DNA of 64,000 nt from an uncultured Fodinibius sp. (GTDB lineage Bacteria; Bacteroidota; Rhodothermia; Balneolales; Balneolaceae). The stretch lies in the NCBI GenBank assembly GCA_913056235.1, contig CAJXMW010000001.1:310001-374000 (forward strand). Reading direction: 5' to 3'. Below the pieces are notes generated by a model. That model did not search any database and had not been told where the DNA came from. It saw nothing but the letters and a program-made list of their open reading frames with translations. This document shows positions 28,223 through 31,478 of this stretch, piece after piece. A program made the position numbers and the translations under genes. Position 1 is the stretch's first letter, and each line of letters starts with the position of its first letter.

Positions 28223-30286
28223 ATGTCTGACAATTACCGCGCTTTAACCCGTACGTACCGACCCACTTCTTTTGATGATATCGTGTCGCAAAAGCACGTC
28301 AGCAACACGCTGAAAAATGCCATCAAGAAGAACCGGTTGGCCCATGCCTACATGTTTTGCGGTCCGCGCGGGGTGGGTAAAACGACCATGGCCCGCGTGC
28401 TGGCTCGGACAGTCAATGAGATCGACCAGGAGGTGGACGGCGAATCGCTGAATCAGACACTGAACGTCGTTGAGATTGACGCAGCCTCCAACAACAGCGT
28501 GGATGATATTCGCGACCTGCGCGAACGCGTGCGCATCCCGCCGCAAAACGGGCGCTATAAAATTTACATTGTGGACGAGGTTCACATGCTCAGTAAGTCG
28601 GCGTTTAACGCCCTGCTGAAGACCCTCGAAGAGCCGCCCGATCACGTTATTTTTATTTTTGCAACCACTGAGCCGCACAAGGTACTGCCGACGATCCTTT
28701 CGCGCGTGCAGCGCTTTGACTTTAAGCGCATCAGCGTGGATGAAATTGTAGAACGCCTTGACGCCGTTGCCCAGAATGAGGGCATCAATATTGATGACGA
28801 GTCGCTGCACGTCATCGCCAAAAAGGCCGATGGCGCCCTTCGCGATGCGCTGGGACTGATGGATCAGGCTATTGCCTTCTGCGGCAATGACATCCAGCAT
28901 GAAGAACTGCTGCGCGCCCTGAATGTGGTGAGCACCGAGCGCATGTTCGACTTTATGAACGCGGTAGAGCAGCAGGATGCCAGTGACGGCCTTGAACTTA
29001 TCAATGAGCTGCTGCAAGAAGGATACGACATTCAGGAATATTTAGTGGGATTAACCGAGCATCTGCGCAATTTATATGTAGCCAAGAGCTCGGCCAAGAT
29101 GCACCTGGTGGAAGCTTCTCCCGATACCAAAAAACGCTACAAGGAATCAGCAAGGGATTTTTCCGAGGATGATCTGATGCGGATGCTGCATATCGTGAGC
29201 GAAGCGCAGTATAAGATCAAGGAAGCGCATCAGCCTAAAATACAGTTTGAGATTACATTGCTGAAGCTTATCCACATGGAGCGCACGCAGAACCTGAATG
29301 CGCTGCTCGGTGAGCTTGAGGAGCTAAAAAAAAAGCTCAGTAACCCGTCAACGGTAACCACTTCTGAAACGACTAAAGAGACTTCAGATTCAGCCGAAGC
29401 AGATACCAAATCTCCAAAAGAAAAACCGGATCCTTCGGCTCAGGCTAATCAAAACGGGCAAGTTGCTGCGGGAGAAAAGCCTGAATCTGGCGAAAAGCAA
29501 TCTGATTCTCCACAGAAGTCGCAACCCGACCAAACGATTGTTCAACAAGATGCGAAGCAGGAAACACCCGAAGAGCGTGAAGAACCATCAGAAGTACAAG
29601 AGCCTGAGGTAACTGAGGAAGCCGACGCTACATCCGATGCACCGACCACACCACATCCTCGGGCTATAGATGATGAGCGGCAAAATGAGTCTGAGCCATC
29701 AACCAATGAATCCGAGCAGCAGGTAGCTACGACTGAGCAATCATCCCCGCAAGAAGCTACAGCGCAGGACGATAAAGAAGATGATCTTGACAACCTGTTT
29801 GGCGAATCCTCGCTTGGTAGCCCCAAATCATCCAACGGATCGGCTGAAGCTGAAACACAGACTGAGACGGCTACAAAGTCCAAGGCGGTGGAAAAGCGGG
29901 CGCCGAAAGATGTGGCGCTCGATGAAATTGAAGAGTGCTGGGATGAATATGTTCAGCAGCTTCGAAAAAAATTCCCTGAGCTTTTGTATATCCAAATGCA
30001 GCGCGTGGAACCCATTGAACTGAAAAACGGGGAACTGACTCTGCGATGCAATGATGATTTTGCAAAGAAAATTGTAGATGAAAACAAACGACGACTCAGC
30101 AAGTCGCTGAAAGACCAGCTGGGCGCATTTTTGTCATTTAACTGTGTTGTCAAAAAACAGGAAACGAACGCCGAAGACTCTAAAAGTCCATACGAACGAT
30201 TTAAAGATCTCCAGAAGCGCGATCCAACTATTAAAAAACTGGTAGAACTTTTTGGCGCTGAACTGGACTATAATTTAAATCAGTAA
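28223..30286 (+). CDS. dnaX: DNA polymerase III subunit gamma/tau
   Basis: 687 residues as tau. The AAA+ clamp-loader module spans about 1-365: Walker A GPRGVGKTT (47-55), DEVHMLSKSAFNALLKTLEEPP as Walker B, and the SRVQRFDFKRI sensor 1 region. The zinc-binding Cys cluster normally found after Walker A is absent; the segment reads ARTVNEIDQEVDGESLNQTLNVVEIDAASNN. At codons 367-371 a nine-A run (29326-29334) with A AAA AAG offers a frameshift or slippage route to a 373-residue gamma protein. Residues ~375-570 form a low-complexity Glu/Ser/Thr/Gln linker, followed by a C-terminal polymerase-binding-like domain. Heads a dnaX-ybaB-recR group. Confidence 0.96.
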   Translation: MSDNYRALTRTYRPTSFDDIVSQKHVSNTLKNAIKKNRLAHAYMFCGPRGVGKTTMARVLARTVNEIDQEVDGESLNQTLNVVEIDAASNNSVDDIRDLRERVRIPPQNGRYKIYIVDEVHMLSKSAFNALLKTLEEPPDHVIFIFATTEPHKVLPTILSRVQRFDFKRISVDEIVERLDAVAQNEGINIDDESLHVIAKKADGALRDALGLMDQAIAFCGNDIQHEELLRALNVVSTERMFDFMNAVEQQDASDGLELINELLQEGYDIQEYLVGLTEHLRNLYVAKSSAKMHLVEASPDTKKRYKESARDFSEDDLMRMLHIVSEAQYKIKEAHQPKIQFEITLLKLIHMERTQNLNALLGELEELKKKLSNPSTVTTSETTKETSDSAEADTKSPKEKPDPSAQANQNGQVAAGEKPESGEKQSDSPQKSQPDQTIVQQDAKQETPEEREEPSEVQEPEVTEEADATSDAPTTPHPRAIDDERQNESEPSTNESEQQVATTEQSSPQEATAQDDKEDDLDNLFGESSLGSPKSSNGSAEAETQTETATKSKAVEKRAPKDVALDEIEECWDEYVQQLRKKFPELLYIQMQRVEPIELKNGELTLRCNDDFAKKIVDENKRRLSKSLKDQLGAFLSFNCVVKKQETNAEDSKSPYERFKDLQKRDPTIKKLVELFGAELDYNLNQ
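29318..29343 (+). promoter_or_regulatory. predicted dnaX recoding site (gamma/tau switch)
   Basis: Codons gag cta aaa aaa aag ctc contain nine A residues (29326-29334) and the A AAA AAG heptamer (29329-29335) in the correct frame. A -1 shift or one added A gives gct cag taa with stop at 29341-29343; a +1 shift or one lost A gives a stop at 29355-29357. A GAGGAG word lies at 29318-29323, and gagct/agctc arms flank the A run. The placement at the end of the motor domain matches known dnaX recoding in E. coli and Thermus. That it works here is inference. Confidence 0.6.
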
Positions 30287-30449: not shown

Positions 30450-30794
30450 ATGAATCAGAATATGGCCGATATGTTCGGAAAGTTTTCCGAAATGCAAGAA
30501 AAGATGGAAGAGGCTAAACAAGAATTAGCCAAAGTGGAAGTTGAAGCCGAGGCCGGCGGCGGCATGGTGAAGGTGAAAGCCAACGGCAAACGCAAAATTT
30601 TGAGCATTGAGCTCGATGAGGATGTCATTGATCCTGATGACGCTGAGATGATGGAAGACCTCGTGGTAGCCGGCGTAAACAAGGCGCTGGACAAGGCCGA
30701 AGAAGCCGCCCAGGAACACATGCAGAAAATATACAAGGATATGATGCCCGGCGGCGGAATTCCCGGCATGGACATGAGCAAACTGGGACTTTAA
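30450..30794 (+). CDS. YbaB/EbfC family nucleoid-associated protein
   Basis: 114 residues. Helix-rich ends (FSEMQEKMEEAKQELAKVEVEAEAGGGMVKVKANGKRKILSIELD) and a central beta sheet fit the YbaB fold, a small dimeric DNA-binding protein. It sits between dnaX and recR, the order found in many bacteria. The C-terminus is Gly/Met-rich (MMPGGGIPGMDMSKLGL). The dnaX-ybaB gap is 163 bases, so it may have its own promoter. Confidence 0.95.
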   Translation: MNQNMADMFGKFSEMQEKMEEAKQELAKVEVEAEAGGGMVKVKANGKRKILSIELDEDVIDPDDAEMMEDLVVAGVNKALDKAEEAAQEHMQKIYKDMMPGGGIPGMDMSKLGL

Positions 30795-30869: not shown

Positions 30870-31478
30870 ATGGAAGGAACTTCAGAAATACTGGAGCAGG
30901 CTATCGAACAGCTGGCCAAGCTCCCGGGGACGGGTCGCAAATCAGCACGTCGTATTGCGCTGTACCTGCTCAAGCAGGATGATGAGTCGGTAATAAAACT
31001 GGCTGATGCGCTTGTGGATCTCAAAAAGTCGATCACCCGCTGCTCCACTTGTGGCGTAATCAGCGACAGCGACCCCTGCTCCATTTGCAGTAATACCAAA
31101 CGCCAGACGGGACAAGTTTGTGTGGTGGAAGAGTCGCAGGATGTTTTCCTGATTGAAAAAACCAACGAATTTCGCGGCCGATACCACGTGCTCGGCGGGG
31201 TCATCTCTCCACTTGATAACATTGGTCCCGATGATGTGCGCATCAAACAGCTGATGAAGCGCATCAACGAAGATGACGAAGAGATCGATGAAATAATTCT
31301 GGCGTTGAATCCCGACTCGGAAGGAGAAGCCACATCGTACTATATTAACAAGCTGTTAAAACCCTTCGATGATGTGAAAGTCACTCGCATTGCCTACGGC
31401 ATTCCCATGGGTACAGAGCTCGAGTTTATCGACGAGGCTACCCTTGGACGGGCTTTTGCCAGCCGCAACACGTTTTAA
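30870..31478 (+). CDS. recR: recombination mediator RecR
   Basis: 202 residues, standard length. The N-terminal helix-hairpin-helix contains LPGTGRKSARRIALYLL, the zinc finger is CSTCGVISDSDPCSIC, and the Toprim domain starts VCVVEESQDVFLIE and runs to ALNPDSEGEATSYYI. A Walker-like C-terminal GIPMGTELEFIDEATLGRAF follows. RecR acts with RecO or RecF to load RecA at gaps. It follows ybaB in the conserved dnaX-ybaB-recR order. Confidence 0.97.
   Translation: MEGTSEILEQAIEQLAKLPGTGRKSARRIALYLLKQDDESVIKLADALVDLKKSITRCSTCGVISDSDPCSICSNTKRQTGQVCVVEESQDVFLIEKTNEFRGRYHVLGGVISPLDNIGPDDVRIKQLMKRINEDDEEIDEIILALNPDSEGEATSYYINKLLKPFDDVKVTRIAYGIPMGTELEFIDEATLGRAFASRNTF

Follow-up and report, generated by a model that had tools for sequence, protein, structure and literature searches.

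The dnaX gene and its A run

The window, by which we mean the whole 64-kb stretch of DNA analysed here, contains a dnaX gene whose product is matched by TIGR02397 (dnaX_nterm) over residues 5–350 with 407 bits. The product is also matched by the Pfam families PF13177, PF22608 and PF12169, in a layout of a P-loop part (residues 23–170), a lid (174–221) and domain III (233–354). Its closest named relatives are dnaX genes of Fodinibius/Aliifodinibius, with 92–93% identity over 366 residues. Downstream of dnaX lie ORFs of 114 residues (30450–30794) and 202 residues (30870–31478), which by eye resemble YbaB/EbfC and RecR, and we take this to be the common dnaX–ybaB–recR order. The features in and around the run of A's in dnaX are the following.

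28223–30286, plus strand: dnaX, with ATG at 28223 and stop at 30286, 687 aa
28223–29343, plus strand: region that would encode the predicted gamma (one extra A in the mRNA), as judged from the frame
29318–29323, plus strand: GAGGAG, a Shine-Dalgarno-like word, 5 bases before the heptamer
29321–29338, plus strand: inverted arms GAGCT/AGCTC round the A run, at 29321–29325 and 29334–29338
29326–29334, plus strand: A9 run, candidate slippage site, codons 368–371, CTA AAA AAA AAG CTC
29341–29343, plus strand: TAA stop of the −1 frame (one A added), read GCT CAG TAA; predicted 373-residue gamma ending KKKAQ
29355–29357, plus strand: TAA stop of the +1 frame (one A lost or two added); predicted 377-residue gamma form ending VTRQR

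The heptamer A_AAA_AAG is in frame at 29329–29335. An earlier note on this DNA had described the nine A's, the in-frame heptamer and both stops, and was correct in their sequence, frame and coordinates, but it placed the run exactly at the end of the AAA+ module. The run in fact lies some 14 codons beyond the three-domain module, as the lid extends to residue 221 and the domain III match to 354. A cut at 368–373 would keep the three-domain clamp-loader module and about 15–20 further residues. In 1jr3, the gamma chain of E. coli has 373 residues; it aligns to query residues 4–350 and is similar in extent to the predicted gamma, while E. coli gamma as such has 431 residues and ends well beyond domain III. 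The part absent from the predicted gamma corresponds to the tau tail; in E. coli, tau domains IV and V bind the helicase and the polymerase (PMC11470591).

Conservation of the run within the order and the class

In the order, a full dnaX match was obtained in 95 of 96 genomes, and these 95 were fetched (G129, with a weak match only, was dropped), together with 15 of the 99 genomes from the rest of the class. Runs were measured in a zone from −20 to +30 codons from the module end. The family, order and phylum are labelled Balneolaceae, Balneolales and Bacteroidota according to the named loci and to the GTDB placement, and the class outside the order is presumably Rhodothermales. As the 60 named close loci overlap with the genome set, the main counts are from the genome set only.

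Within the window's family, a run of at least nine A's is found in the zone in 68 of 73 genomes, and the run stands at the same column in 67/73; the named close loci have it in 57/60, the three without it being L042, L048 and L051. According to the earlier note, relatives that replaced the run by AAG codons would speak against recoding, but none of the 67 family genes with Lys-Lys at this place does so. Both full Lys codons are AAA in 67/67 and never AAG, compared with an AAA share of 40–85% at 14 other conserved Lys columns of dnaX. The codon preceding the run has A as its third base in 99% of 70 genes, whereas none of 87 other Leu/Val/Ile columns exceeds 49%. The final codon of the run is AAC in 41 family genes, AAG in 17 and AAA in nine, so that drift of this codon has removed the E. 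coli heptamer from most runs. The residue at the last codon varies and the A's persist, which indicates selection for the run itself.

The run is not universal. It is present in 5/22 genomes of the other four Balneolales families and in none of the 15 sampled genomes from the rest of the class, and is therefore absent in 17/22 and 15/15, respectively, as it is in 13/60 genomes outside the class and in 5/73 of the family. The lineages without the run (other Balneolales families and the rest of the class) are mostly richer in G+C, but within the family there is no such trend, with a mean GC of 0.42 without the run and 0.44 with it. The five family genomes without a run in the zone belong to genus g11 (4/5) and genus g17 (1/1). 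In L173 (G187), L187 (G173), L156 (G140), L185 (G175) and L191 (G040), an A9 or A10 is found further down the linker and the usual column has no run; G187 and G173 are among the five family genomes just mentioned. The slippage site may have moved down the linker in these five loci. Other homopolymers were seen in the linkers of L104 (G078), with ten G's at codon +43, and L190 (G103), with ten C's at codon +235. The fetched module parts (130 kb from 170 genes, with only about 100 codons of the module per genome outside the class) hold no homopolymer of at least nine, and the −20 to +30 zone holds 120 A-runs.

Conservation across the phylum and beyond

The phylum set comprised 118 genomes, 89 of them outside the class, of which 60 were fetched. 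A9–A11 was found in the zone in 47 of these 60, representing 19 of 22 family-level groups, and all three phases of the run occur among the relatives. We also inspected 20 more distant named loci with 38–46% identity (three titled only 'bacterium', the rest from other phyla, and L080 too short). Four of them carry an A9 or A10 no more than 30 codons from the module end, and in three of these four both other frames stop within eight codons. These loci include L065 (Fibrobacter), L068 (Spirochaetes) and L081 (Aliikangiella), where an A9 or A10 lies just past the dnaX module and both other frames stop within eight codons. The arrangement thus extends beyond the phylum, perhaps through convergence.

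A9 sites elsewhere in the genome

The dnaX run is the sole A9/T9 of the window. The genome of 3.97 Mb has 19 A9 sites on both strands, compared with 2.86 A9 per 64 kb in dinucleotide shuffles of the window, or ~178 per genome by rough extrapolation; A9 is depleted in the genome, though not excluded. With ORFs called mechanically, 9 of the 18 other sites have their longest covering ORF on the A strand. Three of these 18, in trmB, a copper ATPase and murD, served as control genes, for which we expected loss of the A9 within the genus. The run was kept in 1/12 genomes for trmB, 4/12 for the copper ATPase and 9/12 for murD. The control thus partly failed, because the murD A9 is retained in 9/12 of the genus without known purpose, and it follows that retention at genus level alone proves little. 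Of 20 loci outside the genus, 17 have no more than A6 in the corresponding murD stretch, and the other three have A9, A9 and A10.

An A9-bearing murD is located at G000:C1:11106-12470 (L084, L272). In two genomes from different genera, G096 (L350) and G100 (L349), murD is split in frame at or just after the A9, and the remainder of MurD lies in the −1 frame, where one extra A would reach it. MurD is an essential enzyme; the splits are either assembly errors or a sign that slippage at A9 in these bacteria would be frequent enough to supply this essential protein.

Stops in both other frames

For the frames adjoining the run, we used the 97 genes that have tau in the zero frame and at least nine A's. 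A −1 stop occurs within nine codons of the run in 97/97 and a +1 stop within nine codons in 87/97. Both stops are that near in 87/97, compared with about 24 expected from synonymous resampling in which genes were treated as independent despite kinship. With kinship likewise ignored in the resampling, the family has a +1 stop within nine codons in 62/66 genes versus 27.7 expected and both stops in 62/66 versus 15.8, while the genes outside the class have both in 22/26 versus 7.0. Thus, both the run and the adjacent stops, whose upkeep in related dnaX genes the earlier note had proposed to check by alignment, are retained in most genes of the family. Since a −1 ribosomal shift offers no reason for retaining the +1 stop, the presence of both stops speaks for slippage.

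Relatives whose tau requires a frame change

In 23 genomes from 10 families, including two genomes of the window's own family, G136 and G138, the zero frame ends no more than six codons after the run. A tau-tail profile built from the C-termini of the 97 single-frame genes matches another frame in 23/23 of these short-frame genomes, the −1 frame in 22 and the +1 frame in G261; the weakest E-values are 1.9e-6 and, for a match at a contig end, 6e-6. With the zero frame ending just past the run and the tau tail in another frame, a frame change is needed for tau in those species. This two-ORF layout is not that of the window gene. The third frame is also closed within nine codons in 23/23, and the run has nine A's in two of the genes, 10 in 18 and 11 in three.

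The layout and the direction of the change both vary among close relatives. G261 requires +1, whereas five relatives in its family require −1, and G217, of the same genus as G261, has tau in the zero frame. Genera g79 and g84 each contain short and long zero frames. The two genomes of the window's family, G136 and G138 (L193 and L194; also L054 and L055), are small at 1.5 Mb, with A10 followed by GAT TAA in the zero frame and the tau tail at −1.

Candidate signals for ribosomal frameshifting

In E. coli, dnaX is a case of −1 programmed ribosomal frameshifting, and the elements that might support the same process here were inspected. All three that the earlier note had listed, i.e. the heptamer, GAGGAG and the GAGCT/AGCTC arms, are present in the window, but the comparison among relatives is against each of them as a conserved element. 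A_AAA_AAG is in frame in 17/68 family runs, 0/5 runs of the other Balneolales and 15/47 elsewhere, and was rejected as a conserved unit since the A9 stays where the heptamer is lost. GAGGAG is probably not a conserved stimulator, as SD-like words upstream of the run occur at chance frequency (36/120 genes versus 32.4 expected); at 29318–29323 it is probably nothing but two Glu codons. Arms of at least five bases are found in 1/120 genes, the window's own, and GAGCT/AGCTC was rejected as a conserved hairpin. A downstream stem-loop was rejected too, with z 0.46 for the window and mean z of −0.32 (n = 73) and −0.13 (n = 47), although z below −2 in 8/73 and 3/47 genes is somewhat above expectation.

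Among the 38 of 45 tRNA genes that were examined, the sole tRNA-Lys anticodon is TTT (UUU), and the other seven genes, at 83–88 nt, are not of the Lys type. A single tRNA-Lys (UUU) is the situation in E. coli as well; therefore, the two-tRNA argument made for slippage in Thermus dnaX (PMC5009743) does not apply. The 16S rRNA tail with the anti-SD had no match in the assembly of the window genome, and the control for this search matched in 9/14 genomes.

Proposed mechanism and alternatives

Taken together, the comparisons make it very probable that the dnaX run is a site of programmed transcriptional slippage like that in Thermus dnaX, and thereby favour the earlier note's proposal of a recoding site that yields a predicted 373-residue gamma, with slippage likelier than frameshifting. 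RNA polymerase would slip while copying the nine A's and give mRNAs with fewer or more A's. Those with nine (or 9 + 3n) A's would be translated into tau of 687 aa, and those one A longer or shorter would reach a stop a few codons on and give gamma of 373 or 377 aa, a product consisting of the clamp-loader module without the tau tail. The earlier note had argued from weak Shine-Dalgarno use and a short spacing; better grounds for slippage are that both stops are kept, the direction of the shift differs (G261) and the phase varies but the run stays at nine or longer. SD-like words at chance and weak hairpins also favour it. The argument from direction is thin, with one genome, G261, of 23 behind it. 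We infer that the polymerase and not the ribosome is the cause and that the process occurs in this organism, in some ratio of tau to gamma. The alternatives below are graded one by one, and these grades are not mutually exclusive.

The first alternative is −1 programmed ribosomal frameshifting at A_AAA_AAG in the E. coli way, in which the ribosome would slip back on the Lys codons and stop at 29341–29343. It would fit the window itself, with an in-frame heptamer, GAGGAG 5 bases upstream and tRNA-Lys UUU as the only one found, and it would agree with the −1 stop near the run in every one of the 97 genes and with the −1 requirement in 22 of 23 reversed genes; PMC5009743 takes reversed dnaX genes as seemingly ribosomal. 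We nevertheless consider it unlikely, because 51 of 68 family runs retain A9 without an in-frame heptamer, the +1 stops are near too, G261 requires +1, SD-like words are not enriched and the hairpin signal is weak. Moreover, every short-frame gene has nine A's or more, though seven would suffice. In E. coli, A_AAA_AAG is reported to be far more shift-prone than A_AAA_AAC or A_AAA_AAA (PMC5009743).

A second alternative, which we rate marginally lower still, is that ribosomes slide on the successive AAA codons, with or without additional polymerase slippage, a reading compatible with the preferred one. A9 in any phase includes an in-frame A_AAA_AAA, sliding of ribosomes has been reported for poly-A lysine runs (PMC4363877), and sliding in both directions would likewise favour stops in both frames, but the same comparative evidence stands against it as against the −1 shift. 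The last, that there is no recoding and the run simply follows from a Leu-Lys-Lys-Lys/Asn motif and a preference for AAA, is very improbable: A9 or longer arises in 19% of resamplings on average (keeping the protein and each gene's own codon usage, for 66 family genes that all bear the run) and murD keeps its A9 in much of the genus, but the run is observed in 68/73 family genomes, the 100% AAA and 99% third-base A at the run columns are unmatched elsewhere in the gene, both alternative stops are nearer than expected, and the 23 relatives whose tau tail lies in another frame speak strongly against it.

Relation to known dnaX systems

The closest known system is the dnaX gene of Thermus thermophilus, which has nine A's, undergoes transcriptional slippage and has nearby stops in both other frames (PMC1088944, PMC5009743). 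The window gene resembles it in its nine A's, in tau lying in one open frame, in near stops in both other frames and in a truncated gamma, which is predicted here. At the level of sequence it shares three features with Thermus dnaX: a conserved run, both stops, and a direction that appears not to be fixed among orthologues. The two differ in that slippage is known there, whereas here the case is read from sequence, and in the position of the run, which lies seven-eighths of the way through the Thermus gene (PMC1088944) and at ~54% here (codon 368/687). As the run comes soon after domain III, the predicted gamma would be little more than the clamp-loader module. Compared with E. coli dnaX, the window shares A_AAA_AAG, a −1 product that stops almost immediately and the single tRNA-Lys (UUU), but differs in having SD-like words at chance, no clear stem-loop and a heptamer not kept among relatives.

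Antonov et al. (2013) described two-ORF dnaX in 17 genes from 12 genera, 12 of them with poly-A, and suggested transcriptional realignment, for which they regarded a shift direction differing between relatives as a mark (PMC3711429). The 23 short-frame relatives resemble these genes in having poly-A, gamma in the zero frame and tau via a frame change, whereas in the window gene the zero frame encodes tau. Our sample also differs in having both layouts within one family and one genus, with one genome of opposite direction. PMC3711429 names Chlorobi among the two-ORF dnaX species, and some genomes of the present sample may be among the species of Antonov et al. In PMC5009743, the reversed dnaX genes are taken as seemingly ribosomal and one Chlorobium is named as having E. 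coli-like signals. Within the literature covered, from which most subscription journals are missing, only these two papers bear on dnaX slippage in Bacteroidetes, Chlorobium or Flavobacteria. Slippage at a dnaX poly-A is therefore of a known kind; the new part, not found in the literature covered, is its breadth across the phylum and the flipping of the tau frame.

Implications

There is also a broader view, to which we give an even chance. Slippage in dnaX would be ancestral to most of the phylum, and as all three mRNA frames would be made, one A more or fewer (9, 10 or 11) or a nearby indel would be near-neutral. The DNA frame of tau would then drift, so that within a genus the annotation alternates between tau and gamma only, and the same property would let some relatives tolerate frame splits next to the A9 of murD, another essential gene. 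Where gamma is the zero-frame product, many such genomes may carry a dnaX that is annotated as truncated. The varied run length, phase and direction among these genomes offer a natural series for measuring slippage by their RNA polymerases. In summary, what was a guess from one gene has become a case, built on comparison, for a short clamp-loader subunit made by polymerase slippage in much of a phylum, which bears on the question of why gamma is made at all.
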